From: an uncultured archaeon
Lineage (GTDB): Archaea > Halobacteriota > Methanosarcinia > Methanosarcinales > Methanoperedenaceae
Direction: 5' to 3'
NCBI GenBank assembly: GCA_902384525.1
Contig: CABMCA010000051.1
Location: forward strand, 1-37,742
Length of the DNA: 37,742 nt
This document shows, piece by piece, positions 21,552 through 37,742 of the stretch (within the stretch, counting starts at the first letter, position 1; every line of letters begins with the position of its first letter). Below the pieces are notes generated by a model. It saw only the letters and a program-made list of their open reading frames with translations. It searched no databases and was not told the DNA's origin. The position numbers were made by a program, and so were the translations under genes.

Positions 21552-23558
21552 TTGGTTGCTTTTTATTTGATTGGGGCCATTTCATCGGTTATATTAAACA
21601 AAAAGGATAGCATTTGTTCGTATTTTTCATTTTTCAGCGCAGCAGCAGGAGCCCTGATCGGTGCGATTTTTTCCATATCCGTAATTTTTGGCGAAACGTT
21701 TTATTTGACACCTTCGCAAGATTCATACCTGAAATTCGGATTTTTTGTAGATAAATTATCAGCCTTTTTTATTCTGGTAATATCAATATCAGTATTTGCA
21801 GTATCGATATTTTCAACAGGATATGTTAAAGAATATTTCGGTAAAAAGAATATCGGTCATCTTGGTTTCCTGTATAATATTTTTATTCTCTCGATGATAT
21901 TTGTAATTTGCGCAAATAACGCAATCATGTTCTTGATATTGTGGGAATTAATGTCCATAATATCTTTTTTCCTTGTAGTTTATGAACATGAAAAACCAGA
22001 AACAAGAAAAGCAGGTTTTATCTATATCGTAATGACCCATATCGGAACCGGTTTCATTCTTCTGTCATTTATGATCTTTGCAGGAGCATCGGGTAGTTTC
22101 AGTTTTGAAACATTCAACGCTGCCGGCATGACCATGACACCGCTTCTTAAAGACCTTGCATTCATTTTTGCTTTCATCGGTTTTGGAGCAAAAGCGGGTA
22201 TCGTTCCCCTTCATATATGGCTTCCATATGCCCACCCTGCGGCGCCAAGTAATGTCTCGGCCCTGATGTCAGGCGTAATGATCAAAACCGCCATTTTCAT
22301 GATGATCCGGGTATTTTTTGATTTTCTTGGAGCAAGCGGATCATGGTGGGGTTACGTTGTACTGGCAGTAGGCACGATATCTGCAATACTTGGCATATTG
22401 TATGCGGTTGTGGAACCGGATATGAAAAGGATGCTGGCATTTAGCAGTATTGAAAATATCGGGATCATCCTTATCGGTCTTGGCGCTTCAATGATATTTT
22501 TCGCAAGCGGAAAGCCCATAATATCAGCAATAGCAGCGATTGCGGCACTATACCATCTCCTGAACCATTCTGTTTTTAAAGGATTGCTCTTCATAGGCGC
22601 AGGTTCCATATTATATTCGACCCATACAAAAAATATCGAAGAATTAGGGGGCATAATAAAGAAAATGCCACTGAGTGCCATTCTTATCCTTATTGGTGTT
22701 TTATCAATTTCGGCGATGCCGCCATTCAGTGGTTTTGTGAGCGAATGGCTGACTTTCCAATCCCTGCTCCTCAGTTTTAATTTAAATAACAATTTTGCCA
22801 TTATCATGCTATCTATCAGTGCTGCATTCCTTGCTTTGACCGGAGCACTTGCCGCTTATTGTTTCCTCAAGTTTTTCGGTATGGTTTTCCTTGCTTTGCC
22901 CAGAAGTGAACATGCCAGGCATGCAAAAGAGGTAAATATTCCAATGCTTGCCGGAATGGGGATATTTGCATTATTATCAATATTGCTTGGTATATTGCCA
23001 GTGTACGTACTTCCAGTGCTTGACAGGATCACAGCATCTTTTATCGGGACAGGTGCATTCAGTCAATCCATTTCAGCTGGTACTTTCGGGATGATATCTA
23101 TCCCCTCCTCGCAGGGAATTTCAATTTTAACGCCTGTTCTTCTTGCAATATTATTAATTCTTATGTTAATTCCCGCCATTATTTTATTGATCAATAGGAA
23201 GACCTGGCAGCCAAACTATGAAACATGGGGATGCGGCCAGCCGATTTCAACAGCGCGAAATGAATATTCTGCAAATGCTTTCTCAAAACCTGTTCAGATG
23301 TGGTTCAAGAGCTTATATCGTCCCGCAAGAGAAACAGAAGTAACTTATTCATCCCCGTATCTAAAGGAATCGTTTAAGTTCGAATCAAGAATAGAACAGG
23401 TATTTGAACAATATTTATATAATCCGGTGGTTGATTTCGTCATGGTCAAATCAAGAAAAGCCAAACTAATCCAGACAGGAAGCATTCATGCATATCTTGG
23501 TTACATTTTTGGAATATTAATTATCCTTTTCATGTTCGTAATAGCAGGAGGAAGCTAA
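21552..23558 (+). CDS. HyfB/NuoL-like proton-conducting antiporter subunit, 668 aa
   Basis: First gene of a seven-gene complex I-like operon. It has about 16 membrane helices of the Mrp/NuoL/M/N ion channel fold. The family's conserved acid is in MFLILWELMSIISFF, and the broken-helix Lys/His region is FGAKAGIVPLHIWLPYAHPAAPSNVSALMSGVMIK. The late MLAFSSIENIGIILIGLG motif is also present. The C-terminal WGCGQP and FVMVKSRKAKLIQTGSIHAYLGYIF are typical of HyfB/HycC rather than NuoL. The start is unclear: TTG 21552 has no ribosome site, and homologous text (YDYLFLGLV) appears to begin upstream in the same frame without a standard start. It pumps or conducts H+ or Na+ coupled to electron flow in the soluble arm. 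Confidence 0.93.
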   Translation: MVAFYLIGAISSVILNKKDSICSYFSFFSAAAGALIGAIFSISVIFGETFYLTPSQDSYLKFGFFVDKLSAFFILVISISVFAVSIFSTGYVKEYFGKKNIGHLGFLYNIFILSMIFVICANNAIMFLILWELMSIISFFLVVYEHEKPETRKAGFIYIVMTHIGTGFILLSFMIFAGASGSFSFETFNAAGMTMTPLLKDLAFIFAFIGFGAKAGIVPLHIWLPYAHPAAPSNVSALMSGVMIKTAIFMMIRVFFDFLGASGSWWGYVVLAVGTISAILGILYAVVEPDMKRMLAFSSIENIGIILIGLGASMIFFASGKPIISAIAAIAALYHLLNHSVFKGLLFIGAGSILYSTHTKNIEELGGIIKKMPLSAILILIGVLSISAMPPFSGFVSEWLTFQSLLLSFNLNNNFAIIMLSISAAFLALTGALAAYCFLKFFGMVFLALPRSEHARHAKEVNIPMLAGMGIFALLSILLGILPVYVLPVLDRITASFIGTGAFSQSISAGTFGMISIPSSQGISILTPVLLAILLILMLIPAIILLINRKTWQPNYETWGCGQPISTARNEYSANAFSKPVQMWFKSLYRPARETEVTYSSPYLKESFKFESRIEQVFEQYLYNPVVDFVMVKSRKAKLIQTGSIHAYLGYIFGILIILFMFVIAGGS

Positions 23559-24503
23559 ATGATCGCACAAATCATTTTCCAGCTATTTATCATCATTGCC
23601 CTGGCCCCGCTGCTTAGCGGAATCATGAAAAAAGTAAAAGCATTCTTCCAGATAAGGAAAGGTCCGGGTGTGTTGCAGCCATATTATGATATACTAAAAC
23701 TCCTCCAAAAAGATTCCGTTGTTTCAACGAACGTGTCCTGGATATTCCATGCTGCGCCCGTTGTTTCTTTTGTGGCCGTACTCGCAGCAGGTTTGTTGAT
23801 ACCGATATACACTACACAACTTTACCTTGGTTTTGCAGGAGACCTGATCGCAGTTATATACTTATTTGCCCTGGCAAGGTTTTTTACCGCCCTTGCTTCG
23901 CTGGATGCCGGAAGTTCTTTCGGGGGGATGGGAGGAAGCCGTGAGATGTTCATAGCTTCTTTAGTAGAACCGGCATTGATGCTTTCTATTTTTGCAGTTG
24001 CGCTAAATGTTGGCTCAACGAATCTGGGTTTCATTTCACAGACCGTATCAGGCCTGGGCTTCGATGCCATGTCACCTTACCAGATACTTGCTTTTGTCGC
24101 ACTTTTTATTATCGCAATAGCTGAAACCGGGCGCATCCCTGTGGATAATCCGGCTACACATCTTGAACTTACGATGATCCACGAAGCAATGATACTTGAA
24201 TATTCAGGAAAACAACTGGCAATAGTGGAGCTTGGGGCAATGATAAAGCAATTACTCATTTTTTCATTGCTTGCAAACATATTTTTCCCATGGGGCATAG
24301 CTACAGGAGGCGCAGGTGCAGCAGAATACGTTTTAGCATTGTTAATTTTTCTGATAAAGATAGTAATTATTGGAATAACGATGGCAGTTGTTGAAACTTC
24401 AACAGCAAAATGGAGATTGTTCCGGCTGCCTGAATTAATGTCAATATCTCTTATGCTTTCATTCCTGGCCATTGTGGCAGTTATTATAGTAAAAGGAGGA
24501 TAA
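23559..24503 (+). CDS. HyfC/NuoH-like membrane anchor subunit, 314 aa
   Basis: The Q-module anchor that joins the soluble electron-transfer arm to the membrane ion channels. Eight helices are visible, with the family signature IRKGPGVLQPYYDILKLLQKD near the N-terminus, DAGSSFGGMGGSREMF, and the strongly conserved ETGRIPVDNPATHLELTMIHEAMILEYSG loop with its Glu and Asp residues. These are all as in HyfC/EchB/MbhM and related to NuoH. The ATG directly follows the TAA of the previous gene, with AGGAGG about ten bases before it. An intact channel-coupling subunit argues that the complex still moves ions, despite the altered large subunit. Confidence 0.95.
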   Translation: MIAQIIFQLFIIIALAPLLSGIMKKVKAFFQIRKGPGVLQPYYDILKLLQKDSVVSTNVSWIFHAAPVVSFVAVLAAGLLIPIYTTQLYLGFAGDLIAVIYLFALARFFTALASLDAGSSFGGMGGSREMFIASLVEPALMLSIFAVALNVGSTNLGFISQTVSGLGFDAMSPYQILAFVALFIIAIAETGRIPVDNPATHLELTMIHEAMILEYSGKQLAIVELGAMIKQLLIFSLLANIFFPWGIATGGAGAAEYVLALLIFLIKIVIIGITMAVVETSTAKWRLFRLPELMSISLMLSFLAIVAVIIVKGG

Positions 24504-24505
24504 AA

Positions 24506-25165
24506 ATGGCAGAAGTTGTTTTTGGGTCTAAAATAATGCAATTATTAATAGCATTCATTCTTGTTTCGACTTTTATGATACTTGGTTCCACAAGGCTATA
24601 TTCATGTGTCAGGGCTTTTGGTATCCAGTCATTCCTGCTTGCATGCGTTGCTGGCATTGTGGCATATTCCACGGGAAAATATGATATTTATATTGTCGCT
24701 CTCCTGACCCTGATAATAAAATCAGCAGTAATACCGTATATTTTTATTTACATTATCAGGGAGATCAAAGTTAAAAAGGAGATAGAACTTTATGTTAATA
24801 TATCGCCTTCACTTATCATTGGCGGTACCCTTGTTGTAATATCATATTATCTTATAAGATCGATAAGTATCATTTCAGAACTTTCAAGTTTAGCACTTTC
24901 AGCGTCCATGTCGCTTGTGTCAATAGGGCTTTTCATTATGATAAGCCGAAAAAAAGCCCTGATGCAGATGCTTGGAATACTGATAATGGAGAATGGTCTT
25001 TTTCTCGGGGCAATTTCATTGACAAATGGCATGCCTCTTCTGGTTGAACTCGGGATATTCTTTGATGTCCTTATCGGCGTTCTCATTATGGGCATCCTGA
25101 TATTCAGGATAAACAAAACATTTGAGAGTATAGATACGGATTTGCTCAAAAATTTAATAGGTTGA
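24506..25165 (+). CDS. HyfE-like membrane subunit (NuoK-related), 219 aa
   Basis: A polytopic protein of about seven helices. The C-terminal half resembles NuoK/MrpC (LMQMLGILIMENGLFLGAIS with a membrane Glu, and a later ELGIFFDVLIGVLIMGILIFRI). The N-terminal half (IMQLLIAFILVSTFMILGSTRLYSCVRAFGIQS) is the extra HyfE domain. It supplies a proton-channel half-site next to the HyfB- and HyfF-like antiporters. An AAAGGAGG site overlaps the end of the preceding gene, and the ATG follows that stop by two bases. Co-translation is very likely. Confidence 0.93.
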   Translation: MAEVVFGSKIMQLLIAFILVSTFMILGSTRLYSCVRAFGIQSFLLACVAGIVAYSTGKYDIYIVALLTLIIKSAVIPYIFIYIIREIKVKKEIELYVNISPSLIIGGTLVVISYYLIRSISIISELSSLALSASMSLVSIGLFIMISRKKALMQMLGILIMENGLFLGAISLTNGMPLLVELGIFFDVLIGVLIMGILIFRINKTFESIDTDLLKNLIG

Positions 25166-25169
25166 TACC

Positions 25170-26630
25170 ATGATAGAATATCTTCTTCTTGCTCCTGTAT
25201 TGACAGGCATATTATGCTTTCTTACAAAATCAAAGAAACAAGTTGAGACGGTAAGTCTTATAGGTTCTATCGCTACCCTTATTCTTGGATTGATCCTGGT
25301 AAAAAATGTGTATCAGAACAATGTCGTAATTTCGTGGACAAACGCCCTCTTTGCGGATGCATTCAGCGCTTTTATTGTCCTCATCGTTTCAATTGTAGGT
25401 TTTGTGGCTTCGGTTTATTCCATTGGTTATATGGGGCATGAATTCAAACACGGGATAATGGATTTTAAAAAATTGAAACTCTATTATATCCTGTTTCACA
25501 TATTTATGTTCACCATGCTCCTTGTCGGGGTCACAAATAATCTTGGCCTCTGGATCGCAATTGAGATGACAACTCTTGTTTCAGCCCTTCTCATGATACT
25601 TCATACCAAAAAATCCTCGGTTGAAGCAGCCTGGAAATATATGATCATATGCACGGTAGGAATTACATTCGCCCTGTTCGGAACCATACTTACCTATTAT
25701 GGAGCTGTAAAAGTACTGGGAGAATCAGGAGATGCTCTTAACTGGACATCCCTTATCGCGGTGGCAGACCAGTTTGACCCTACTATAATGAAGCTTGCAT
25801 TCATTTTTATTCTCATTGGATATGGCACAAAAGCAGGTCTTGCTCCCATGCATACCTGGCTTCCGGACGCGCACAGCGAGGCCCCAACATCTGTGAGCGC
25901 GCTGCTTTCAGGAGTTCTCCTGAATTGCGCCATGTATGGGATTATCAGATTCTATACGATCGCAACAAAGTCAACCGGACCGGCTTTTACAAGCAATCTC
26001 CTCATTATATTCGGGCTTCTTTCCATTGGTATAGCAGTGCCATTCATAATTCTACAGGAAGATTACAAACGGATGCTTGCATACAGCAGCGTTGAGCATA
26101 TGGGAATAATAGCCCTCGGGATAGGATTCGGAGGGGCTCTGGGGGCTTTTGGTGCGATACTCCACATGTTCAATCATGCCATGACAAAATCACTGATGTT
26201 TTTCGGCGCGGGAAATGTGCTTCTAAAGCATGAAACAAAAGAGATAGACAAGGTGAGCGGAATAATGAAATCCATGCCCACAACCGGAACATTGCTGCTA
26301 ATAGGAGGGCTTGCGATCACAGGGTCGCCGCCTTTTGGTATATTCATTAGCGAATTTACAATACTTTCAGCAGGTTTCTTTCAGGGAAATATCATTTCTT
26401 CGGTCTTATTTCTGCTCTTTATAATTATGATATTCGCAGGTTTTTTCTATAACTTGAGTAAAATGATCTTCGGAATTCCAAAATCCGGAATCGTGCCCGG
26501 AGAAGTGAGCAGGTGGACTCTCGGGGCAATGGTGATCGTTGCAGTATTCGTAATTGTGCTGGGAGTCTATATTCCCCCGTTTTTTTATGATATGATCATG
26601 AAAGTCGTGGCTGTCATAAGGGTGATTTAA
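25170..26630 (+). CDS. HyfF/NuoM/N-like antiporter subunit, 486 aa
   Basis: A second proton-conducting subunit of about 14 helices. It shows NLGLWIAIEMTTLVSALLMIL with the key membrane Glu, GYGTKAGLAPMHTWLPDAHSEAPTSVSALLSGVLLN with the broken-helix Lys, and MLAYSSVEHMGIIALGIGF. It is of the HyfF type, which lacks the long lateral helix of NuoL. Only two large antiporters are encoded here (HyfB- and HyfF-like; no HyfD), so fewer ions per electron would be expected than in complex I. Four bases separate it from the previous gene, and its TAA shares one base with the ATG of the next (TAATG). Confidence 0.95.
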   Translation: MIEYLLLAPVLTGILCFLTKSKKQVETVSLIGSIATLILGLILVKNVYQNNVVISWTNALFADAFSAFIVLIVSIVGFVASVYSIGYMGHEFKHGIMDFKKLKLYYILFHIFMFTMLLVGVTNNLGLWIAIEMTTLVSALLMILHTKKSSVEAAWKYMIICTVGITFALFGTILTYYGAVKVLGESGDALNWTSLIAVADQFDPTIMKLAFIFILIGYGTKAGLAPMHTWLPDAHSEAPTSVSALLSGVLLNCAMYGIIRFYTIATKSTGPAFTSNLLIIFGLLSIGIAVPFIILQEDYKRMLAYSSVEHMGIIALGIGFGGALGAFGAILHMFNHAMTKSLMFFGAGNVLLKHETKEIDKVSGIMKSMPTTGTLLLIGGLAITGSPPFGIFISEFTILSAGFFQGNIISSVLFLLFIIMIFAGFFYNLSKMIFGIPKSGIVPGEVSRWTLGAMVIVAVFVIVLGVYIPPFFYDMIMKVVAVIRVI

Positions 26631-28195
26631 TGAATGCCAATATAGAATCCATCAAAAAAGAATTTAATACTAATGTTCTTGAAGTTTCCACACTACATAA
26701 TGAAACATATCTCACTGTAAAAAAAGAATTAATAGTGAAAATGTGTGACTATATTTATCACCATCTGGATCTGCCAGTTGTTTGTATTTTTGCCACGGAT
26801 GAACGCAAAATTGACGGCTCTTTTAAAATTCATTATGTTTTCTCAGAAGCCAGGGATGATTCATTTATAATTTTAAGAATAAGTATCGATGAAAAAAATC
26901 CGAAATATCCTTCCATTACTAATAAGATCGCATCTGCAAACTGGTACGAACGGGAGATACAGGACATGTTCGGCCTGATACCGCAGGGGCATCCTGATCC
27001 GAGAAGGCTTATGAACTTTGAGGACTGGCCTGCCGGAGTGCATCCTCTCAGGAAGGATTTTGATATCAAAACAAAACCGCCCCGGGTAGATGGTGAATAT
27101 ATCTATCGCCGTGTGGAGGGTGAAGGCGTATATGAGATACCTGTTGGTCCGGTACATGCGGGTGTGATCGAACCAGGACATTTCAGGTTCAGCGTGGCAG
27201 GTGAGCCCATAATCAATCTTGAAATCAGGCATTTCTACACTCATAAAGGGGTTGAGAAACTTTTTGAGAATATCTCGATTGACAAAGCCGTTTTTCTTGC
27301 TGAGAGGATTTCAGGCGATAACTCAGTCGCCCATGCAGTGACGTTCTGCCAGGCAATGGAAAAAATAGCCGGGCTAAACATACCGCCACGCGCAAACCAT
27401 ATCAGGACAATTCTTCTTGAACTTGAGCGAATATACAATCACATTGCTGATATCGCAGGGATCGCGACAGATGTGGCTTTTTCATTCGGCGCAGCGCACG
27501 CCAACAAACTCAAGGAAGATGTATTGCAGTTAAATGAACGTGTCACAGGAAGCAGATTGCTCCGGGGCATGAACACAATCGGTGGTGTGCGGCGCGATAT
27601 TGGTGGCAGTAAGGATGAAATCCTTCTTAGTCTTTCGATTATTCAAAGAGATTTCAGGAAATTGATGGAACATCTGAGCTCGACCCCATCCCTGATGGAC
27701 AGGATAGAAACAACAGGGCGCCTCTATAATGATATAGCTAAGGGATTGCATGTAGTAGGGCCGGTTGGACGGGCTTCCGGGATTGACAGGGATATGCGGC
27801 GCGATCATCCGTATGCGGCCTACAAGGAATTCAATTTCAAAGTAATTGTTTCAAAAGCAGGTGATGTGCATGCAAGGACTATTGTACGGGCAGATGAAGT
27901 ATGTGAATCCGTAGGATTGATAGAACAGGCGCTCTGGTCACTTCCTGAAGGTGACATAAGAGTAAAGGTTGATAAAATCCCGGACGGTTATGCGCTCGGG
28001 ATTTGCGAAGCGCCAAGAGGAGAAACAATTTACTGGATACGAACATCAGGGAACAAGATCGAAAGGTGCAAAGTCCGTGATCCGTCCTTTTGCAACTGGC
28101 TTTCCATAGAGTATGCAGTGCTTGATAATATCGTACCTGACTTCCCGATCATAAACAAGAGCTTGAGCTTGTCTTATTCAGGCAATGACATGTAG
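26630..28195 (+). CDS. HyfG-like fused NuoC-NuoD large subunit lacking all NiFe ligands, 521 aa
   Basis: The N-terminal domain is NuoC-like (ANWYEREIQDMFGLIPQGHP, residues 103-122), followed by a NuoD/hydrogenase large-subunit domain beginning GPVHAGVIEPGHFRF. In real group 4 hydrogenases a first CGxC pair follows 'ER(V/I)'; here it reads ERISGDN, with Ser228 and Asn231 in place of the cysteines. The C-terminal DPCxxC is replaced by SLSYSG with Ser515 and Gly518. All four NiFe cysteines are therefore gone, and H2 chemistry is not possible. The neighbouring RxHP-type residues and overall length are normal, so this is not decay but the pattern of 'Ehr' (energy-converting hydrogenase-related) complexes or of NuoD. 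There is no C-terminal maturation peptide after the motif, which is also consistent. It ends in TAG. Confidence 0.95.
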   Translation: MNANIESIKKEFNTNVLEVSTLHNETYLTVKKELIVKMCDYIYHHLDLPVVCIFATDERKIDGSFKIHYVFSEARDDSFIILRISIDEKNPKYPSITNKIASANWYEREIQDMFGLIPQGHPDPRRLMNFEDWPAGVHPLRKDFDIKTKPPRVDGEYIYRRVEGEGVYEIPVGPVHAGVIEPGHFRFSVAGEPIINLEIRHFYTHKGVEKLFENISIDKAVFLAERISGDNSVAHAVTFCQAMEKIAGLNIPPRANHIRTILLELERIYNHIADIAGIATDVAFSFGAAHANKLKEDVLQLNERVTGSRLLRGMNTIGGVRRDIGGSKDEILLSLSIIQRDFRKLMEHLSSTPSLMDRIETTGRLYNDIAKGLHVVGPVGRASGIDRDMRRDHPYAAYKEFNFKVIVSKAGDVHARTIVRADEVCESVGLIEQALWSLPEGDIRVKVDKIPDGYALGICEAPRGETIYWIRTSGNKIERCKVRDPSFCNWLSIEYAVLDNIVPDFPIINKSLSLSYSGNDM

Positions 28196-28203
28196 GTGAA
28201 AAA

Positions 28204-28539
28204 ATGCTTGAAATACTCAGGAAAACCATTAAAGCCGGCTGTCAAACGACGAAATATCCTGCTGTACCTGATATTGCACCGGAGGGTTTTCGCGGAAAAC
28301 CTGAAATCTCAGATAAATGCACTTTTTGCGGGGATTGTATTAAAGTCTGTCCGCCAGGTGTTATATGGTTCACGGAAAAAAGCGGTGAAAAGACGCTTTC
28401 ATTATCTTATTGCGGCTGCATATTCTGTGGAAGATGTGAAGAAGCATGCGGATATGGCGCAATCAAACTCACGCAGGAATATGAACTCGCATCAAAGACA
28501 AAAGAAGACCTTATTACCAGTATCCGGAGTAAGTTATGA
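28204..28539 (+). CDS. HyfH/NuoI-like ferredoxin subunit with two [4Fe-4S] sites, 111 aa
   Basis: An electron-wire subunit with two complete CxxCxxCxxxC motifs. The first is CTFCGDCIKVC with Cys39, 42, 45 and 49. The second is CIFCGRCEEAC with Cys72, 75, 78 and 82, preceded by an extra Cys70. The last Cys of each motif is not followed by a normal Pro in the second case (CGYGAI). The N-terminal PAVPDIAPEGFRGKPEI is the usual NuoI/HyfH lead-in. Its ribosome site AGGTGA overlaps the TAG of the large subunit. It overlaps the next gene by four bases (ATGA), giving translational coupling within the complex. It links a soluble donor, plausibly ferredoxin, to the small subunit. Confidence 0.95.
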   Translation: MLEILRKTIKAGCQTTKYPAVPDIAPEGFRGKPEISDKCTFCGDCIKVCPPGVIWFTEKSGEKTLSLSYCGCIFCGRCEEACGYGAIKLTQEYELASKTKEDLITSIRSKL

Positions 28540-29018
28540 CGGTTGAAGATGAAATTGAGATAATGGGGCAGCGCCTGAATGATAAAATCAGGAATATATT
28601 CGGGAGATCACTGCATATTCGTGAAGTTGATGCAGGCTCGTGCAACGCATGCGAGGTTGAGGTGAATGCGCTTTCAAATCCGATATACGATATTGAGCGA
28701 TTCGGTCTTCATATTGTGGCTTCACCGCGCCATGCTGATATGCTCCTTGTCACGGGTCCTGTTACGCGAAACATGGAACTTGCGCTTCTTAAAACTTATA
28801 ACGCAACGCCGTCACCAAAACTTGTCGCTGCAATGGGTTCGTGCGCCTGCAATGGCGGGATCTTTGGAGATACTTACGCAAGCTGTGGCGGAGTTGACAA
28901 AATTATTCCCGTGGATGTATATATTCCGGGATGTCCTCCAAGACCGCAGGCTGTGATTTTCGGACTTATGGTTGCGCTTGATAAACTCGAGCAGAAAATA
29001 AGAAAGAAAGAGGTTTGA
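28536..29018 (+). CDS. HyfI/NuoB-like small subunit, 160 aa
   Basis: The subunit that holds the proximal [4Fe-4S] cluster (N2-like). Its four ligands appear intact: CNAC gives Cys36 and Cys39, MGSCACNGG gives Cys103, and PGCPPRP gives Cys133. There is an extra Cys105. The pattern with ligands on both ends and GCPPRPQ is exactly that of NuoB and the group 4 hydrogenase small subunits, so electron flow to the interface with the large subunit should work even though no NiFe site remains there. That points to a different acceptor, such as a quinone-like methanophenazine or menaquinone, or an unknown redox partner. It overlaps the ferredoxin gene by four bases. Confidence 0.95.
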   Translation: MTVEDEIEIMGQRLNDKIRNIFGRSLHIREVDAGSCNACEVEVNALSNPIYDIERFGLHIVASPRHADMLLVTGPVTRNMELALLKTYNATPSPKLVAAMGSCACNGGIFGDTYASCGGVDKIIPVDVYIPGCPPRPQAVIFGLMVALDKLEQKIRKKEV

Positions 29019-29681: not shown

Positions 29682-30068
29682 CTAATTCTTCCCCAGTATC
29701 CTTAATGCCAGGTATGCCGCATTCTCACCATTATCTATTCCTACGCAAGCTACAGGTACTCCTTTTGGCATCTGGGCAATTGATAAAAGCGCATCAAGTC
29801 CGCCAAGTTTTGAACTTACCGGAACGCCTATTACAGGTTTCTTTGTCCTTGAGGCGACCACTCCGGGAAGAGCCGCAGATAATCCTGCAATTGCAATGAA
29901 CACTTGCGCATCACTTTTTTTTATGTAATCCTCAAGCTCTACCGGATTCCTATGTGCCGATAGAACCTGGATATCATAATCGATCCCTGCATTATCCAGT
30001 ACTTTTATTGTTCTTTCGGCGATCTGCCTGTCTGAATCCGATCCTATCAAAATAGCAATAGTAACCAT
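29682..30068 (-). CDS. purE: N5-carboxyaminoimidazole ribonucleotide mutase / AIR carboxylase (PurE), 128 aa
   Basis: De novo purine biosynthesis: converts N5-CAIR, or AIR plus CO2, to CAIR. It shows the PurE nucleotide loop [12 protein letters not shown], the SAHRNP motif with the catalytic His, and the archaeal form of the third loop ([26 protein letters not shown]), followed by [33 protein letters not shown]. Whether it is the mutase or the direct carboxylase type cannot be settled; no purK is in the window. The start is ATG 30068, giving a normal length; a longer in-frame reading runs back into the upstream gene. It is last in a three-gene minus-strand cluster. Confidence 0.92.
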
Positions 30069-30084
30069 AGCTATTAATGGTTGA

Positions 30085-30357
30085 TTAATCTTTAAAATCC
30101 TTTTGAGAATTATCATTACAGGATTTAACGTGTCTTGTAAACATTGAAAGCCACATTGAATACTTTCCATAAACCATAACTGCGCTATTCGGGTAAGCAG
30201 CCTCATTTAAATAAGAAGAGTCTTGCTCCAGTTCGGCAGTATCCTGGAAATTCAACATCATCGCCCCATTTTTTTCAAAACCAAGTGAAATGTTGATATT
30301 TTTCGTTTCATTTGCCTGTAGCTGGATAGATGTGATATATTTTGGGACTTCTTTCAT
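30085..30357 (-). CDS. Hypothetical protein, 90 aa
   Basis: Unrecognised. Soluble, opening [20 protein letters not shown] and then beta-rich ([21 protein letters not shown]). No metal motif or membrane helix. It begins one base after the stop of the DUF5371 gene (TAATATG) and ends 16 bases before purE on the same strand, so it belongs to that transcription unit. It could be a small partner of the DUF5371 protein. Confidence 0.65.
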
Positions 30358-30358
30358 A

Positions 30359-30496
30359 TTACTCTTCCTTTGCGCATTTTAAATAAAAATAAACAGCTTT
30401 TGAAATCGCTTCCTTTACTGAGGATTCGCCTGTTTTTGCTTTCAGTGCAATCACATCCTCCTGTGGAAGTACTGATTGGACGTGAACATATTTCAT
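30359..30496 (-). CDS. DUF5371-like small protein, 45 aa
   Basis: Short gene with a clear ribosome site (GGAGG, about nine bases before the ATG at 30496). It encodes a protein whose end, LKAKTGESSVKEAISKAVYF, matches the small archaeal DUF5371 proteins (about 45-65 aa), which resemble ribbon-helix-helix or HicB-like C-terminal helices. Function is unknown; DNA binding is conceivable from the KTGESSVKEAISKAV helix pair. The first residues MKYVHVQSVLPQEDV give one beta-strand, as in RHH dimers. It heads a cluster with a 90-aa protein and purE, and is divergent from the FAH-family gene across 169 bases. Confidence 0.7.
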   Translation of the reverse strand: MKYVHVQSVLPQEDVIALKAKTGESSVKEAISKAVYFYLKCAKEE

Positions 30497-30665
30497 TCTT
30501 TAATTCCTCCAAATGATACTAAATATATTATGATTATAATTATGATACTGATGATGTATAAAGCTTTCTATGGACAATTTTTGATTTAGTATTAGCATAT
30601 CAAAAACTTAATAAGTAAAGCAAGGTATTCACCTGAAAAATTGAGATGGCAGAGGGTATTATTGA

Positions 30666-31412
30666 ATGATTGGACGATTTAAATATGATAATGAAGTGCT
30701 GGAGGGGGTTGTCAGGGAAGAGCGTGTTATAGTTGAAAGAGGCCTTTATTGTGATACTTTTGTTCTGGCAGAGCTGGAGATATTGCCGCCAACAATCCCG
30801 AGCAAAATAATCTGCGTGGGATTAAACTACATGGATCATGCCCGGGAACTGGATATGGCGATACCGGAAAAACCTTTGATTTTTCTTAAACCCCCATCTT
30901 CAGTCATTGGACATCTTGGAAAAATTGTCTATCCTGGCACAGCAAAACGAGTCGACTATGAAGCTGAACTTGCTATTGTGGTTGGTAAGCGCTGTAAAAA
31001 TGTTTCATCCGGGGATGCAAATAGTGTGATCATGGGATACACGTGCTTTAATGATGTAACGGCCAGGGATATCCAGAAAGAAGATGGACAATGGACACGG
31101 GCAAAAAGTTTTGACACTTTTGCACCTTATGGCCCTTTTATAATAGATTCAGGATTGGATGTTAGTGACCTCTATATCAGGACAAGGGTTAATGGTAAAG
31201 TAAGACAGAATTCAAGAACTTCCAATCTCATTTTTGGTGTGCCTGAATTAATAGAGTTCATTTCCAGCATCATGACTCTGGAGGCCGGGGATATCATAGC
31301 GACAGGTACGCCGCCTGGTGTTGGTGAATTATCGGCCGGGGATGAAGTTGAAATTGAAATAGAGGGCATCGGGATATTGAAAAATAGTGTTGTTAGTGAC
31401 AAGACCAAATAA
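30666..31412 (+). CDS. Fumarylacetoacetate hydrolase family protein, 248 aa
   Basis: An FAH-fold hydrolase, decarboxylase or isomerase, acting on 2-oxo or acylpyruvate-like substrates with Mg2+ or Mn2+. The catalytic region is complete. IPSKIICVGLNYMDHARELD is followed by LKPPSSVIGHLGKIVYP, then the metal ligands in VDYEAELAIVVG (Glu, Glu) and CFNDVTARD (Asp), and the late EAGDIIATGTPPGVG. Typical length is 230-280. It is close to the YcgM/HpcE group; some archaeal relatives act as acylpyruvases or oxaloacetate decarboxylases. The start ATG is 30666 after GAGGGT. It is monocistronic as far as can be seen. Confidence 0.92.
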   Translation: MIGRFKYDNEVLEGVVREERVIVERGLYCDTFVLAELEILPPTIPSKIICVGLNYMDHARELDMAIPEKPLIFLKPPSSVIGHLGKIVYPGTAKRVDYEAELAIVVGKRCKNVSSGDANSVIMGYTCFNDVTARDIQKEDGQWTRAKSFDTFAPYGPFIIDSGLDVSDLYIRTRVNGKVRQNSRTSNLIFGVPELIEFISSIMTLEAGDIIATGTPPGVGELSAGDEVEIEIEGIGILKNSVVSDKTK

Positions 31413-31524
31413 AATAATAAAATATTGGATATTGAAAAATAAAATTTGTCAATTGTATCCTCTCGTTTTATTAAGAATGAAATCAATAAAAGCATTAAAT
31501 AACCAGCGAAAAGGTGAATGAAGA

Positions 31525-31683
31525 ATGTCGGATGTATATGATAATGTATGGGAAACCCGAAAGCGTAAGCCTCCTGCAAGAGAAGAGAAAAAACTCCAGG
31601 AGGTAAAACCACCATCCACAGACCGGGATAGGTTAAATGATACAATTGAGAGAAGGAAAAAAAATGTGTACGGGATGAAATAA
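31525..31683 (+). CDS. Small basic protein, 52 aa
   Basis: A short gene with AAGGTGA at 31511-31517 and ATG at 31525. The product begins MSDVYDNVWETRKRKPPARE and is very rich in Lys, Arg and Glu, with no hydrophobic core, so it is probably disordered or nucleic-acid binding. I have no family for it, but the site, start and charge pattern make it a better gene than the longer antisense frames there. It lies in an otherwise empty 370-base gap. Confidence 0.55.
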   Translation: MSDVYDNVWETRKRKPPAREEKKLQEVKPPSTDRDRLNDTIERRKKNVYGMK

Positions 31684-31781
31684 GGCCAATTCATATCGAA
31701 CCCATATTAAATCGGGTAGATATATAATTAAATTCATTTTTTGATGTGAACTTTTTTTTATTTAAATAAGGAGGTATTCAT

Positions 31782-32489
31782 ATAGTAGAGGTTTCAATCG
31801 TCCTTCCTGCCTATAATGAAGTGAGACGAATTGAAGGAACTGTTGAACGAACAGCGGCAGCTCTTCGTGAAATCACATCATCTTTTGAAATAATAATTGC
31901 TGAGGATGGCAGCATTGACGGCACAGATAAAATATGTGAATCTCTCGCAAAAAAATATAATTTTGTGATGCACCTGCATTCGGAAAAACGCCAGGGAAGG
32001 GGACGAGCCCTGAACCGGGCATTCAAAGAATCAAAAGGAGAAATCCTCGGATACATAGATGTAGACCTTGCAACTGATATGAATCATCTAAAAGAGTTGA
32101 TCCAATCCATCCGTGATGGATATGATTTTGCCACAGGTTCACGGATGCTTCCGGAAAGCAATGTCAAGCGGCCTTTAAAAAGAGGATTTGCAAGCAAAGG
32201 TTTCAATTACCTGACACGCCTGATGCTTGGTTCGAAACTCTATGATCACCAGTGCGGTTTCAAATCCTCCAGGCGCGAAGCAATGTTTGAGCTAATGGAT
32301 GAAATAAAAGATACCCACTGGTTCTGGGATACCGAATTGTTCGTGAGGGCACAGCGCAAAGGATTCAAGGTAAAGGAATTTCCGGTTGTCTGGAAGCATG
32401 GTGGCACAACTAAAGTCAACCTCGTAAAGGATGTCTTCGGAATGGGATCCCAGATATTCAGGTTATGGTATGAATTCTTATGGGATTGA
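31782..32489 (+). CDS. Family 2 glycosyltransferase, probable ATA start, 235 aa
   Basis: A GT-A-fold enzyme of the dolichol-phosphate mannosyltransferase/DPM1-like branch, making polyisoprenyl-phosphate sugars. Its family motif VSIVLPAYNE lies just upstream of the first standard start (GTG at 31821) and is therefore essential. In frame, the best initiation point is an ATA at 31782, seven bases after the strong AAGGAGGT site (31768-31775). The Asp pair in IIAEDGSIDGT and the DVD metal motif (IDVDLATD, about residues 93-95) are intact, as is the late SRMLPESNVKRP and DTELFVRAQRKGFKVKEFPVVW. No membrane segment is seen. It overlaps the downstream DUF2298 gene by ten bases, so the enzyme may supply lipid-linked sugar to that membrane protein. 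Confidence 0.9.
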   Translation: MVEVSIVLPAYNEVRRIEGTVERTAAALREITSSFEIIIAEDGSIDGTDKICESLAKKYNFVMHLHSEKRQGRGRALNRAFKESKGEILGYIDVDLATDMNHLKELIQSIRDGYDFATGSRMLPESNVKRPLKRGFASKGFNYLTRLMLGSKLYDHQCGFKSSRREAMFELMDEIKDTHWFWDTELFVRAQRKGFKVKEFPVVWKHGGTTKVNLVKDVFGMGSQIFRLWYEFLWD

Positions 32490-34648
32490 ACCTGTTTGAT
32501 ATTGCAATCTGGTGGCTTGTCTTAGAGATCATAGGATTTATAACCCTTCCGTTTTCATGTTATTTGTGCCGGAATTTAAAAGATTCCGGCTATTGCATTT
32601 CAAAGCCATTTGGATTACTGCTTCTTACATATATCGGCTGGATCATTTCTATTGCTGTCGGTTATTCTTATATTTCCATAATGCTTTCATTGGTAGTTAT
32701 AGCAGCATTTTCGTTCTTGATATATATCAAAAAAGGCTTTGTTCATTTTGAAAAAAAATATATCATTAAATTTGAAATAATATTTTTACTTGCTTTTTTG
32801 ATATTTGCATTGATACGCGCTTACAGTCCTGACATTTACTGGACGGGTGGCGAGAAATTCATGGACATGACATTCATTAACAGCATGCTTCGAACCACTG
32901 GATTTCCTCCTCCTGACCCGTGGATGTCAGGTACTGTGACATATTATTATTATTTCGGCTATCTTGTAGTTTCGAATTTGATAAATATTACAGGAATATT
33001 GCCATCAATAGCCTTTAATCTCGCTACCGCCTCTTTTTTTGCTTTATCTTTCACGACAGCTTTCGGTATCGGGTTCAATATTACTGGGAGAATAAAGTAT
33101 GGGATTCTCACTGCATTTTTCGTTACGATCGCGGGAAATCTTGTGGGTTTTTTCCAGTTGGCGGATATTTTCAGAAAAGAAAATGCGCTCAACAACATGC
33201 TCTCATTTAATTACTGGACAAGTTCGCGCGTTATCCCTGATACTATTAATGAATTTCCATATTTCAGCTTCCTCCAGGGTGATTTACATCCACACATGAT
33301 ATCAATTACCTTCCAGCTTCTTGTAATTCTTCTTCTGCTGAATATAATGAAATCTAATTCCATTGATTGGCGTTCAATCCTTGTTCTGGGGCTTTCTGTA
33401 GGTTTTTTGTATCCACTGAATACGTGGGATTATCCTGTGTATCTGATTCTGGCGATTATGGTAATCGGTTGCAATCAAATATTTATTTATTCAAAAAATC
33501 ATCGGATAAAAATGAAATTTTATCTAATCTCATTTGCATCAATAGCAGCAATGGCCGCTGCAAGTTATCTATTGTATCTACCGTATCATCTTTCGTATAA
33601 GATAGACAAGACTATTTCGTTAGTCCCTTCCGGAAGAACATCTTTGATCTTTTATATGGCTGTTTATGGATTATTCCTGTTCCTTATTTACACTTTTGTC
33701 CTGAGAAACACCTGGAATTTTAATAAGAATATATTCAAGTTATCATTGATCTTGCCGGGAATAGCTGCATTGATAACGCTATTTGAGGCGAGGCAATTTA
33801 TTTTTAATATTGCGACAAATCCAAAAACCAATGACTATGAACTTTTGATCTTACTGATACCCCTTCTTGTTCTGTCGGTACTTTCCATCTTGAAAGAGAA
33901 GGATAAGAATAATGTTTTTATTTTGATATTAATTCTAACTGGTGTATTCACATCCCTTTTCTGTGAATTTTTTTATATCCAGGATGCGCTGGGAAGCGGA
34001 AATCCGATTTATATTCGTCTGAACACTGTTTTTAAAATGTATCTCCAGAACTGGGTCATCTGGGGCATTTGCGCTGGTTATATCGTATTCTGTCTACGTG
34101 ATTATTTTAATTCAAAAAAAGCATGGGGGATCGCAGCTGTCGCCCTCATCCTGCTGGTTTCCATATATCCTGTTTTTGCTACAATCGGAAAATCCGGCAG
34201 TTTCAGAGGTGTTCCTGAACTTGACGGCATGGCGTATGTAAAAAAAGAGCATCCACAGGACTACCAGGCGATATTATGGTTCAGGAATATAACCGGACAG
34301 CCCGTTATCCTTCAGGCGCCGGGTGAATTATATGAATGGAATACTGCCATAACAACATTTACAGGACTTCCAACAGTAATAGGATGGGCCGGACATGAAC
34401 TTAACTGGAGATTCCCGAAAAGGAGCGAGATAGACCTGCGCTGGTCAGATGTTGATAAAATATATACATCAGGTGATATTACAGAAGTAGATGGGCTTTT
34501 GAGGAAATATAATGTTTCGTATGTTTATTTTGGTGAGGCTGAGGCAGAACGATTCAGGAATCCTGGGCTTTTTGAGGGACATCCTGAGGTGTTTGAAAAG
34601 GTGTTTGAATACGGGGATGTGCGGGTTTTCAAGCTGAAAAAAAATTGA
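32480..34648 (+). CDS. DUF2298 polytopic membrane protein (YYY domain), 722 aa
   Basis: A large membrane protein of the Chlor_Arch_YYY family. It has about 16 helices and the name-giving run YYYYFGYLVVSNL (about residue 155), preceded by the loop acids SPDIYWTGGEKFMDMTF, and the FSFLQGDLHPHMISITFQLL motif (about 270). The C-terminal 120 residues form an external domain (PELDGMAYVKKEHPQDYQA to the end) like those of GT-C glycosyltransferases. The family is thought to be GT-C-like but its function is not established. The start is ATG 32480 inside the GT2 gene. GT2 and DUF2298 neighbours recur in archaea and Chloroflexi, suggesting a lipid-linked sugar transfer pair for cell-surface glycans. Confidence 0.9.
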   Translation: MGLNLFDIAIWWLVLEIIGFITLPFSCYLCRNLKDSGYCISKPFGLLLLTYIGWIISIAVGYSYISIMLSLVVIAAFSFLIYIKKGFVHFEKKYIIKFEIIFLLAFLIFALIRAYSPDIYWTGGEKFMDMTFINSMLRTTGFPPPDPWMSGTVTYYYYFGYLVVSNLINITGILPSIAFNLATASFFALSFTTAFGIGFNITGRIKYGILTAFFVTIAGNLVGFFQLADIFRKENALNNMLSFNYWTSSRVIPDTINEFPYFSFLQGDLHPHMISITFQLLVILLLLNIMKSNSIDWRSILVLGLSVGFLYPLNTWDYPVYLILAIMVIGCNQIFIYSKNHRIKMKFYLISFASIAAMAAASYLLYLPYHLSYKIDKTISLVPSGRTSLIFYMAVYGLFLFLIYTFVLRNTWNFNKNIFKLSLILPGIAALITLFEARQFIFNIATNPKTNDYELLILLIPLLVLSVLSILKEKDKNNVFILILILTGVFTSLFCEFFYIQDALGSGNPIYIRLNTVFKMYLQNWVIWGICAGYIVFCLRDYFNSKKAWGIAAVALILLVSIYPVFATIGKSGSFRGVPELDGMAYVKKEHPQDYQAILWFRNITGQPVILQAPGELYEWNTAITTFTGLPTVIGWAGHELNWRFPKRSEIDLRWSDVDKIYTSGDITEVDGLLRKYNVSYVYFGEAEAERFRNPGLFEGHPEVFEKVFEYGDVRVFKLKKN

Positions 34649-34664
34649 GTGCTGAATAAATTAT

Positions 34665-34702
34665 GCTGACTTAAAGGGATATGATTCAATCCCAAAGTCA
34701 GC
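34665..34702. terminator. Bidirectional hairpin between convergent genes
   Basis: GCTGACTT (34665-34672) pairs with AAGTCAGC (34695-34702), with an inner GGGAT/ATCCC pairing and a short loop. It lies 17 bases after the DUF2298 stop and 55 bases after the end of the convergent tail-anchored protein gene, a fitting place for a terminator serving both. AT-rich tracts flank it. Confidence 0.65.
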
Positions 34703-34757
34703 CTAATGTCAAAATTCAAAAATTTTGTCAACATTTTATTTTCAATTTTATATCCCT

Positions 34758-35396
34758 TCAGATTTTACCCCATTTCTTTAGTGTGACACCTATCACTGCA
34801 ACGACTGCAAATACACCCAAAATCATATAGAAGTTGAATGCTGGTCCAGTTGTTGAAGGTGCTGCTGTAGTAGCAACCTGGGGTTCCTTTGTTCCTGTTA
34901 CTCCCACTGCGGATTTTATGGGTGGAACTGTAGACTGCGGCACAGTTGTGGTTGGTTTTATTCCGCTTCCTGACCCTCCTCCACTTCCGCCGGATGAACT
35001 GCCAGATGAACTAGATGTTCCACTGTTAGCACTGAGATCAACACGAATAATTTTGCCAGCCTCATTTGAATGATACGTGAATTGGATTGATGGTGTTGCT
35101 TTAATACCATTTACATAGAAATCAACATTAGCTCCATCGTTTGCAGATATTGGAAGCCTGCCGTTCGGTTTATCTCCATAAGTTCCTGCAGTAAGAACAT
35201 TAGTAGCTCCAGCCTGGCTAGTCCCCGCTTTTGCAGTTATTGTTACACCTACCGGCGCTGGATTTCCATCAATAATAACATTCCCGTATAGCATTACAGG
35301 TAAACTTGGCGGGTTATCATCTGCGCCAGCAATGCCAGCAGAGAAAGCGATAGCTGTGCAAATTATTATTATAGTTAATATTTTTTTACTTGACAA
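34758..35396 (-). CDS. Secreted, tail-anchored Ser/Gly/Thr-rich protein, 212 aa, TTG start
   Basis: A cell-surface protein. A signal peptide (residues 1-25, ILTIIIICTAIAFSAGIAGA) is followed by a beta-domain beginning LPVMLYGNVIIDGNPAPVGV, the 'Y-G-x-V-x-I-D-G-x-P-A-P' surface domain frequent in Methanosarcinales. A low-complexity linker (about residues 125-145, mainly Ser and Gly) and a Thr/Pro linker lead to a single C-terminal helix (FNFYMILGVFAVVAVIGVTL) and basic tail KKWGKI. The linkers are likely O-glycosylated. The start is TTG 35396, with AAAAGGTGAT about five bases away; no ATG is available in this frame nearby. It is downstream of the cohesin gene on the same strand. Confidence 0.85.
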   Translation of the reverse strand: MSSKKILTIIIICTAIAFSAGIAGADDNPPSLPVMLYGNVIIDGNPAPVGVTITAKAGTSQAGATNVLTAGTYGDKPNGRLPISANDGANVDFYVNGIKATPSIQFTYHSNEAGKIIRVDLSANSGTSSSSGSSSGGSGGGSGSGIKPTTTVPQSTVPPIKSAVGVTGTKEPQVATTAAPSTTGPAFNFYMILGVFAVVAVIGVTLKKWGKI

Positions 35397-35484: not shown

Positions 35485-36972
35485 CTAGGGACTATATGCA
35501 GGTAATGACGTATCCTGAGTTGCCCAAACCCAATAGCTTACTTTGGGCTGCATCATAAATACATCGGTTCCAACATGTGTTGCGTCGATATTACCGCTCT
35601 TTCCATTGATGCCTATCATATCATAGCTCTGAGTTAAAACATTAAAGTTCCAGATGCTATAGTAGCTTTGATCTATTGCTCCAAGCATCGTTTCAGAGTC
35701 CAATGCAGAAGTATTAGTGGTTCCGACAAGGTTCCATCCTTTCTTCACATCGAGTGACGGAGGCATTTGCGGTTGTCCGCCAATATGCACAAGATTGGTT
35801 ATGTCCTGTGATGTATTCATATGTATCAGGTAGCCTTTCAGTGGGACTAGATCCATCACGCCACCAACATAGGTCTTATTAACGGGGTCGAAGCTGAAAA
35901 GCCCGTCATACTGAATTCCATTCAATACGTAAGCTACGGTTGAGTTATTCAATTGGTAGGGTACCGAAATGAATCTCCACGACATATTTACGCTCGGCGG
36001 TGTTAGTCCTGTTCCAACGACTACCTGTCCGTCATTCATTACAACTCCAGCAATTGGATCTGCATTAGCGTCTGTAAGCTTCGCCATTGTCAGATCTAAA
36101 TTCGAGGATCCATTTGCAGCGTCGCTCTTTACCGTGAAGGTCAGAGTTGCAAAGGTTCCATTTGCCGATTTGGCAGAATCGCCGCCTGCAATAGTATACG
36201 CAAGCTCCAATGTACCATTGGGGTTGTCTATCTTATTTGCGAACTGTAATGGACTGCTTCCAAGGAAGGATCCAACTACAGCGCTGTTAAGGTTGACAAC
36301 TGATTTATCAAAGCCCAATTTCACCTGAACTCCACTAACGGCCTGACCTGCCGGGTCGATCGTAACATTCACGCTGAATGTATCGGTACGGTTGACACTA
36401 TTCAATGATGGTTCAATCCTGACTGTGGGAGCTGTGACTCCGCCGCCACCTGGAGATGACATCACTGTAATTGTTCCGTCATTCATTGTCACACCAGCAA
36501 TTGGATCTGCATTAGCGTCTGTAAGCTTCGCCATTGTCAGATCTAAATTCGAGGATCCATTTGCAGCGTTGCTCTTTACCATGAAGGTCAGAGTTGCAAA
36601 GGTTCCATTTGCCGATTTGGCAGAATCGCCACCTGCAATATTATATGCAAGTTCCAATGTACCATTGGTGTTGTCTATATTTTTCGCGAACTGTATCGGA
36701 CTGCTTCCAAGGAAGGTTCCTACAACAGCGCTGTTAAGATTGACAACTGATTTATTAAAGCCCAATTTCACCTGAACTCCACTAACGGCCTGACCTGCCG
36801 GGTCGACCACGACATTCACGCTGAAAGTATCGCTCTGATTGACACTGTTTGTTGCGGGTTCTATGCTTACTGATGCTGCCTGGACAACTCCTATACTGAT
36901 TGTGGCGAGTACACAAAATATTAAAAAAGGAATAGTGAGATGTCTCACCTTCCTTGAGATTTTGGTTTTCAT
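35485..36972 (-). CDS. Secreted protein with two nearly identical cohesin domains, 495 aa
   Basis: A scaffold-like extracellular protein. The signal peptide is residues 1-33 (LTIPFLIFCVLATISIGVVQA). Two type I cohesin-like beta-sandwich domains follow at about 34-172 and 183-322. Each opens with the family text SVSIEP...VNQSDTFSVNV, continues with AVSGVQVKLGF and ends with KLTDANADPIAGV. They are separated by a GGGGV linker. The C-terminal 170 residues are a surface domain with paired WRFISVPY and KKGWNLVGTT motifs, common in archaeal cell-surface proteins. No membrane anchor or sorting tail is visible, so it is presumably released or held by partners. Cohesins bind dockerins; the gene just upstream ends in a dockerin repeat. 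The start has GAGGT eight bases before the ATG. Confidence 0.9.
   Translation of the reverse strand: MKTKISRKVRHLTIPFLIFCVLATISIGVVQAASVSIEPATNSVNQSDTFSVNVVVDPAGQAVSGVQVKLGFNKSVVNLNSAVVGTFLGSSPIQFAKNIDNTNGTLELAYNIAGGDSAKSANGTFATLTFMVKSNAANGSSNLDLTMAKLTDANADPIAGVTMNDGTITVMSSPGGGGVTAPTVRIEPSLNSVNRTDTFSVNVTIDPAGQAVSGVQVKLGFDKSVVNLNSAVVGSFLGSSPLQFANKIDNPNGTLELAYTIAGGDSAKSANGTFATLTFTVKSDAANGSSNLDLTMAKLTDANADPIAGVVMNDGQVVVGTGLTPPSVNMSWRFISVPYQLNNSTVAYVLNGIQYDGLFSFDPVNKTYVGGVMDLVPLKGYLIHMNTSQDITNLVHIGGQPQMPPSLDVKKGWNLVGTTNTSALDSETMLGAIDQSYYSIWNFNVLTQSYDMIGINGKSGNIDATHVGTDVFMMQPKVSYWVWATQDTSLPAYSP
36031..36872. repeat. In-frame tandem duplication of the cohesin coding unit (447 bp period)
   Basis: Text around 36031-36425 recurs 447 bases later at 36478-36872, with long stretches identical apart from isolated changes (for example 36047-36107 and 36494-36554). 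The period is 149 codons and keeps the reading frame. The high DNA identity suggests a recent duplication or ongoing gene conversion between the two cohesin domains. Confidence 0.85.
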
Positions 36973-36998
36973 TGTTTATACCTCGATTTTGTGTTGTC

Positions 36999-37742
36999 TT
37001 ATGTGCACACCTTGCTCCAGTTAAGGATCAATTTTGATGCATCCGAGATGTCAACGATACCATCTCCATTGAGATCCACTGTCTTGCCGTTCGAAAGCGT
37101 ACAGGAGGATGAGTCTGGTGTTGCTAGCGCATCGGCAATGGCCTGTATCTGTGCCTGGCTAAGGGACGAGAGATTGCTCATGGCCGGGACGTTAACGATA
37201 GCACTACTGATTTTTCCCGCTGTGCTATTGAGCTTGGTCGAATTGGCCAGAGCCCCATGGCAGTTTGCGCAGTTGCTGGCGTAGAGCGCCGCTCCGTCGA
37301 GAGGTGGTGGTGTTGCTGTTACTGTTGCTGTTGCTGTTGCTGTTGCTGTTACTGTTGCCGTTGCTGTTACTGTTGGTGTTGCTGTTGGTTCTGGTGTTAT
37401 TGAAGTATCATTCTGTGCGTAGATTTCTTTGAGTTGTCCCTGGAACCTTGGCTCTTTGGCTTCCAGTACATAGGTTATTTCCAACGGTCTCGCTGGAATC
37501 TTCTCGCCTATCTTTTCCTGCATATTCGCAGGTATGGACTGGTCAGTCAGTACATCCACAATTATTTCATGGTCCATGTTGAAAGGCGGCAATTCTGGTA
37601 AGAGTTCTCCAGGTGCCCAGACTTTGAGATGTTTGCCGTAAAGCTTGATCTCATCTTTGGGCAGCTTCTGCCTGATCACTATGTACTTGAACTGTTCGAC
37701 TCCGTTGACCACTTTAGCCTTTATTCCGGCCACATTATAGAA
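36999..37742 (-). CDS. Cytochrome c domain fused to a dockerin repeat (5'-partial)
   Basis: The frame is open to the window edge, so the N-terminus is missing; residue numbers here count from the GTG at 37733. Residues 1-105 form a domain I cannot name (VVNGVEQFKYIVIRQKLPKD). A Thr/Ala/Val linker (about 115-144) follows, then a small class I cytochrome c: heme-binding CANCH (155-159) in the typical LYASNCANCHGAL, and Met185 (VPAMSNLSSLS) as likely axial ligand, with the closing helix SQAQIQAIADALA. The C-terminus is one dockerin-type calcium-binding F-hand, DLNGDGIVDISDASKLILNW (220-239), flanked by Cys211 and Cys243, which could form a disulfide. Canonical dockerins have two such repeats. 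It lies 26 bases upstream of the cohesin gene in the same direction, suggesting an operon and direct docking. Confidence 0.88.
   Translation of the reverse strand, partial: FYNVAGIKAKVVNGVEQFKYIVIRQKLPKDEIKLYGKHLKVWAPGELLPELPPFNMDHEIIVDVLTDQSIPANMQEKIGEKIPARPLEITYVLEAKEPRFQGQLKEIYAQNDTSITPEPTATPTVTATATVTATATATATVTATPPPLDGAALYASNCANCHGALANSTKLNSTAGKISSAIVNVPAMSNLSSLSQAQIQAIADALATPDSSSCTLSNGKTVDLNGDGIVDISDASKLILNWSKVCT
37311..37388. repeat. Hexanucleotide microsatellite encoding the Thr/Ala/Val linker
   Basis: Thirteen tandem hexamers, TGTTGC or TGTTAC with a few variants, encode the alternating Thr-Ala/Thr-Val linker of the cytochrome-dockerin gene. Six-base units change linker length without shifting the frame, so length variation between strains is expected. 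Confidence 0.85.

Follow-up and report, generated by a model that had tools for sequence, protein, structure and literature searches.

The window, that is the whole stretch of 37,742 nucleotides that was analysed, carries on its minus strand three consecutive genes, encoding the end of a giant secreted surface protein, a secreted cohesin scaffold and a small secreted protein with one membrane helix (Table 1). The preliminary description of this DNA had stated that a protein terminates in a CANCH cytochrome c plus a dockerin F-hand, and that its gene lies 26 bases upstream of that for a secreted double-cohesin protein. The domains, the location of both reading frames and the 26-base gap were confirmed. 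The cytochrome reading frame is, however, no small gene: it forms the 3' end of a gene that encodes a giant protein and that was split in the assembly.

Table 1. Features of the three-gene locus in the window
Feature	Position	Strand	Basis or remark
3' end (247 codons) of the giant secreted surface protein gene	36999..37742	(-)	open at contig end; 5' part on G000:C111
Tandem ~560-aa surface domain, C-terminal part	37392..37742	(-)	HMM positions 454-562, E 1.8e-54
Thr/Ala/Pro-rich flexible linker	37302..37406	(-)	sequence
PgcA-like monoheme cytochrome c domain	37116..37301	(-)	PF13442 27.3 bits; PDB 8qj6 E 5.8e-13; motif positions
CANCH heme motif	37257-37271	(-)	residues 158-162 of the 247-residue ORF
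Candidate axial Met (Met188)	37179-37181	(-)	motif position
Half dockerin, one F-hand flanked by two cysteines	37002..37103	(-)	F-hand loop at 37041-37076; second F-hand absent
Secreted cohesin scaffold, 495 aa	35485..36972	(-)	PF00963 101.3 bits; hydrophobic N-terminus (signal peptide)
Cohesin 1	36463..36870	(-)	PF00963 search; cohesin HMM residues 35-170
Cohesin 2	36016..36423	(-)	PF00963 search; cohesin HMM residues 184-319
Scaffold C-terminal 'WxF(I/V)SVPY' domain	35488..35979	(-)	conserved in cassette scaffolds
Third cassette gene: small secreted protein, one C-terminal transmembrane helix, Lys-containing tail; proposed membrane anchor	34758..35396	(-)	hydropathy; conserved position

The heme domain of the giant protein was compared with known families and structures. 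The 247-residue tail contains a single CxxCH motif, and the 864 N-terminal residues encoded on contig C111 have none. The Pfam family Cytochrome_CBB3 was passed narrowly, with 27.3 bits against a cut-off of 27. The nearest solved relatives are the monoheme domains 8qj6 (E 5.8e-13) and 8qjg (E 1.1e-8), which are domains I/II of PgcA from Geobacter sulfurreducens (PMC11520253). In both alignments the CxxCH motif and the candidate axial Met are matched, which places the window domain in the PgcA monoheme type.

The F-hand DLNGDGIVDISD occupies residues 223-234 of the same reading frame and holds all five Ca2+-ligand positions (D1, N3, D5, D9 and D12; loop positions 1, 3, 5, 9 and 12). The dockerin reported earlier therefore stands in respect of one F-hand with every ligand position in place, but it is only half a dockerin. 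Its Dockerin_1 (PF00404) score of 15.1 bits is under the cut-off of 22.9 because just one F-hand is present, and the window protein does not show the pair of F-hands, scoring above the curated threshold, that characterises a type I dockerin. A second cytochrome-dockerin of the window genome, encoded on contig C97 and 87% identical over the matched stretch, has both F-hands and exceeds the cut-off with 26.0 bits; the relatives from METP1 and genome G004 likewise have two F-hands and pass the cut-off. The assignment of the window dockerin is secured by this C97 protein together with the orthologous loci. The dockerin of genome G023 also possesses two F-hands, yet it reached 18.9 bits in the whole-protein scan.

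The adjacent scaffold showed a strong PF00963 match (101.3 bits, E 6.7e-29, curated cut-off 24.1) in two copies behind a signal-peptide-like N-terminus, which bears out the secreted double-cohesin protein of the preliminary description. The product of the third gene matched no Pfam family, and NCBIfam gave just a weak ZirU match far under its cut-off. This anchor gene was found multiplied elsewhere, with three copies in G041 (L151:3896-7174) and two in G067 (L158:1-1548), one of the latter having a dockerin-like tail.

The giant protein is best understood from its intact relatives, which measure 1408 aa in Ca. Methanoperedens STD1_19 (locus L039, G023), 1590 aa in G004 and 1681 aa in METP1 (L038, G030). 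Each begins with a signal-peptide-like segment, continues with a tandem pair of ~560-aa domains and ends in a dockerin, the first domain of the pair being incomplete in G004. In the window's genome the N-terminal part was located on C111, the end of which shares an exact, in-frame 28-base overlap with the end of the window contig C51. The assembly broke within the tandem repeat of the giant gene. The profile of the giant domain found no relative in PDB or Pfam. Identity as a PF07752 S-layer protein was considered and rejected, as the giant domain family has no PF07752 match and separate PF07752 proteins were present in 11 of 11 genomes tested. AlphaFold2 models, computed from alignments of 3-4 rows, were too poor to use (mean pLDDT 33.8 for the giant domain and 44.1 for the scaffold). 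The giant protein is perhaps an adhesin or an outer coat.

The conservation of this neighbourhood was analysed across the order. The preliminary description had named the lack of a conserved neighbourhood in relatives, together with a lack of Ca2+-dependent binding, as evidence against its proposal; a conserved three-gene cassette was found instead, and the closest relatives come from Ca. Methanoperedens, in accordance with the ANME-like host suggested there. A giant protein ending in a dockerin is followed by a scaffold with cohesin and SVPY domains and then by a small membrane-anchored protein, both in the Methanoperedens relatives and in other Methanosarcinales families. Four of the 34 family genomes contain the cassette. 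When 238 genomes of the class were searched with the giant-domain profile, 24 had relatives, and four of these belong to the window's genus. The three-gene order was observed in nearly all loci with a sufficiently long contig, and the third-gene products at these loci have a signal peptide and a C-terminal membrane helix. Pfam called a cohesin in eight of the ten scaffolds scanned, the uncalled ones being the second METP1 scaffold and a distant scaffold of G067. The METP1 cohesins, which Pfam missed, were identified through their 69% identity with the cohesin of G004 and through the cohesin HMM built in this analysis, and direct alignment showed that the cohesins of the first and second METP1 scaffolds are 98% identical. 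A Dockerin_1 match ends six of the nine giant proteins scanned. Beyond the cassette, a DUF2298 membrane protein, a glycosyltransferase, an FAA hydrolase-like and a PurE-like protein are encoded downstream in the same order in the window (29682-35396) and in METP1 (G030:C20, L110), so that the two species with heme seem to have kept the cassette at the same chromosomal place.

The relation between neighbouring cohesins and dockerins was examined by comparing the modules of each cassette separately. In the four loci from Methanoperedens, the window clusters by its giant domain with G023 and METP1 (80-84%) against G004 (53-57%), and by its SVPY domain with G023 and G004 (76-84%) against METP1 (51-57%). 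The cohesin and the dockerin both follow a different division, in which the window falls with G023 and G004 falls with METP1. Cohesin identity is 75-81% between the window and G023 and 68-69% between G004 and METP1, while it is 26-35% between the groups; the corresponding values for the dockerin are 91%, 76% and 24-31%. G004 is thus close to the window in its SVPY domain (81%) and anchor (74%), but not in its cohesin (32%) or dockerin (29%), and it resembles METP1 in cohesin (69%) and dockerin (76%) though their giant domains are merely 57% alike. Further swaps were seen in another genus, where G135 differs from G136 and G137, and G133 and G139 differ from G117 and its relatives. G135 and G137 are 83% alike in the giant domain and 86% in the SVPY domain, but 36% in the cohesin and 47% in the dockerin; the respective figures are 78%, 86%, 41% and 57% for G117 and G133, and 70%, 81%, 41% and 55% for G117 and G139. 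Distances between cohesins and between dockerins, taken from 20 cassettes, were correlated with r 0.90, and the partial r was 0.79 once the distances of both host proteins had been allowed for. No value as high arose in 2000 label permutations. This test leaves some shared ancestry in, but the evidence of the separate swaps is independent of it. Joint replacement of the two modules is what is expected if cohesin and dockerin must match. From this co-variation the neighbouring cohesin and dockerin are very probably cognate, with a predicted Ca2+-dependent bond, as the preliminary description had proposed when it paired them.

The cargo of this predicted bond differs between species. Heme in the giant protein was observed only in the window species and METP1, and it is absent from G023, G004 and the cassettes of other families. 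The METP1 heme domain has a matching position and likewise follows a linker that starts with 'YAQN(D/N)TSITPEP', although the dockerin of the protein is of the other type; the METP1 heme motif is CX4CH and so escapes CxxCH counts. On the adjacent METP1 scaffold a cupredoxin (41.9 bits) accompanies a CxxCH motif, and a second METP1 scaffold (L108:1-4104, G030:C51) carries cupredoxin (39.8), glucose/sorbosone dehydrogenase (134.6), CHRD and SdrD_B domains, with its cohesin after CHRD. Two proteins with the window dockerin type were found in the window genome; both are cytochromes, and the scaffold has two cohesins. The domains, the gene order, the conservation of the cassette, the cohesin-dockerin co-variation and the METP1 redox modules on both sides of the bond can be read directly in these genomes.

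A wider search gave 41 dockerin matches in 17 of 34 family genomes. The check proposed earlier, for other heme proteins ending in a dockerin, yielded the C97 paralogue and METP1, the latter through its CX4CH motif, and no further dockerin protein with CxxCH among those readable from the 34 genomes, which leaves three heme-bearing dockerin proteins in that set. Their small number indicates that heme cargo is rare and specific to the cassette system. The heme-free cassettes of other families indicate in turn that the cassette needs no heme and that the cytochrome is an add-on. The proposal of an electron carrier as the cargo is accordingly only partly right: the primary cargo is the giant surface protein, which here bears a PgcA-like heme domain. 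Electron transfer as the general role of the pair does not hold, as the same cassette occurs without heme in other Methanosarcinales families; its common role in the order would be the holding of the giant protein.

Other redox and dockerin loci were observed in the course of the analysis. In other Methanoperedens species, tandem arrays of the same PgcA-like monoheme domain, with up to 13 CxxCH in 1055 aa, are encoded at L112:4726-7893 (G018:C16), L113:4064-6079 (G020) and L114/L115 (G029, G026). Directly after them follows a protein with six CxxCH motifs and an N-terminal membrane helix, NapC/NrfH-like in appearance and a class III cytochrome in Pfam. In the window genome, a cohesin and cohesin-dockerin gene pair (L023:820-12926, G000:C123) stands beside genes for 6-heme, 7-heme, cytochrome b-like and 4Fe-4S proteins, and cohesin pairs similar to it occur in G004:C59 and G006:C5/C20. 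About ten varied secreted proteins of the window genome (L021-L033) share the nearly identical dockerin 'LVDAIYLAKHVGGF'; its carriers include CAP-like, beta-propeller, polysaccharide deacetylase-like and phosphodiesterase-like proteins. The window also contains, on the plus strand at 21552-29018, an operon resembling a membrane-bound group 4 hydrogenase or complex I-like module, with two antiporter-like subunits, NADHdh, a large subunit of the 30/49 kDa type (partial NiFe match) and a subunit of the 20 kDa type.

The account considered probable is that the cassette tethers the giant protein through a dockerin-cohesin bond, and that in the window species and METP1 this docking places a mobile relay heme at the surface. 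A Ca2+-type bond would hold the giant secreted protein to the cell by way of the secreted scaffold, which would itself be kept at the membrane or surface layer, the product of the third gene being the probable membrane partner. The two cohesins could take up two dockerin proteins. In the two heme-bearing species a His-Met-type monoheme c of the PgcA kind would sit on a flexible linker between surface domain and dockerin, so that docking would bring a mobile heme to the cell surface. Display of heme there is likely. Through tethered diffusion the heme would probably pass electrons on to other cytochromes or acceptors at the surface, or take them up from there; a lone heme cannot form a conduit by itself. 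We infer the binding, the surface location, the heme loading, the membrane anchoring by the third gene product and, by analogy with PgcA, the electron transfer. A more far-reaching form is offered tentatively, as possible: a modular docked redox complex working as a Ca2+-docked surface relay beside multiheme wires, with hemes on dockerin proteins and heme and blue-copper modules on scaffolds, in which the lock and key would be swapped as a unit and the complex of each species would be private.

A cassette that is purely a structural or adhesive tether, on which the heme is a neutral or sensory ornament from domain shuffling with no respiratory role, is regarded as somewhat unlikely. The heme-free form is the common one across the order, heme occurs in the cassette of just two species, and the heme domain is also found on an otherwise unrelated protein, which shows that it travels as a module. 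Against such an ornament, both copies in the window genome retain the heme-binding Cys and His and the Met ligand, the heme domain is present in METP1 despite a dockerin of another type, and additional redox modules are present on the METP1 scaffolds.

The missing F-hand of the window protein could alternatively mean that docking is broken in this strain, the giant cytochrome protein being released or non-functional and the C97 protein being the true ligand of both cohesins. DNA comparison revealed that the window copy is shorter than the C97 copy by exactly 78 bases, one in-frame repeat unit, which corresponds either to an in-frame deletion or to an assembly collapse. A clean loss of this kind between near-identical repeats, with both F-hands kept in the C97 copy, agrees with broken docking; the rest of the window reading frame is nevertheless open, the remaining F-hand has its full set of Ca2+ ligands, and the 78 bases may have been lost by collapse during assembly, given that the contig end falls within a repeat of this very gene. 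This explanation is improbable. A cellulosome-like polysaccharide-degrading complex is hardly credible and was rejected for want of enzymes: cohesin and dockerin domains are present, and other dockerin proteins of the window genome look like carbohydrate-active enzymes, but these have a different dockerin type, the window-matching type was found on two cytochrome proteins only, and Pfam detected no carbohydrate-active or carbohydrate-binding domain on the window cassette proteins or, the sugar dehydrogenase-like domain of METP1 excepted, on the other Methanoperedens cassettes.

The preferred reading, a tether that carries a relay heme in two species, was set against the literature. Cohesins and dockerins of ANME archaea are already known from Chadwick et al. 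2022 (PMC9012536), Timmers et al. 2017 (PMC5244752) raise as a hypothesis a possible role of these domains in the adhesion of multiheme cytochromes, and their expression in ANME consortia is on record (PMC10553843). The earlier statement that no such system has been described is thus too wide for the domains and the multiheme-adhesion remark, while it holds for the cassette and its heme cargo: no account of the cassette, the paired swaps or a dockerin-borne cytochrome was found in a literature search that had most subscription papers outside its reach. METP1 is not named in a metaproteome paper on deep-groundwater Methanoperedens. Genome lists alone assign no cohesin-dockerin partners in methane-oxidising and other archaea. 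At the present locus, partners that are encoded side by side and swap together are available from about 20 genomes, which gives ready cognate and non-cognate pairs and a defined cargo. Should the heme and copper modules prove active, docking would be a new route for electron carriers onto the archaeal surface, as against fusion or filament formation.

Several known systems resemble the cassette in part. The non-cellulosomal ANME and archaeal systems (PMC9012536, PMC5244752; Peer et al. 2009 cited there) share with it surface cohesin scaffolds, several cohesins and dockerin proteins. The partners named in the accessible parts of these papers are ABC-transporter binding proteins and S-layer domains, and a three-gene cassette, paired swaps and single-heme cargo are not mentioned in those parts (PMC9012536, PMC5244752). 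The Clostridium cellulosome, a scaffoldin with dockerin enzymes, follows the same tethering logic with a multi-cohesin scaffold; the window cassette has instead one dedicated partner encoded beside the scaffold, and neither a cellulose-active enzyme nor a carbohydrate-binding module. ANME S-layer multiheme cytochrome fusions (PMC9012536) likewise place heme in or at the archaeal surface layer, but they combine many hemes with PF07752 by fusion, whereas the window protein has one heme motif, belongs to a giant family without PF07752 and would dock non-covalently. Methanosarcinales S-layer proteins of the PF07752 family are also giant, secreted and built of tandem duplicated domains; they differ in the PF07752 domain that the cassette giant lacks, and coexist with it. 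The closest likeness of the heme part is to PgcA of Geobacter extracellular electron transfer, whose monoheme domains, carried on (PT)x linkers, are described as passing electrons to one another by tethered diffusion (8qj6, 8qjg; PMC11520253). Both proteins are secreted and have a CxxCH monoheme domain with candidate His-Met coordination and an adjoining Pro/Thr/Ala-rich flexible linker. PgcA unites three tethered hemes and a lipid anchor in one protein, whereas the window protein has a single heme domain, shows no lipid anchor, is fused to a giant protein and would be held by its dockerin.
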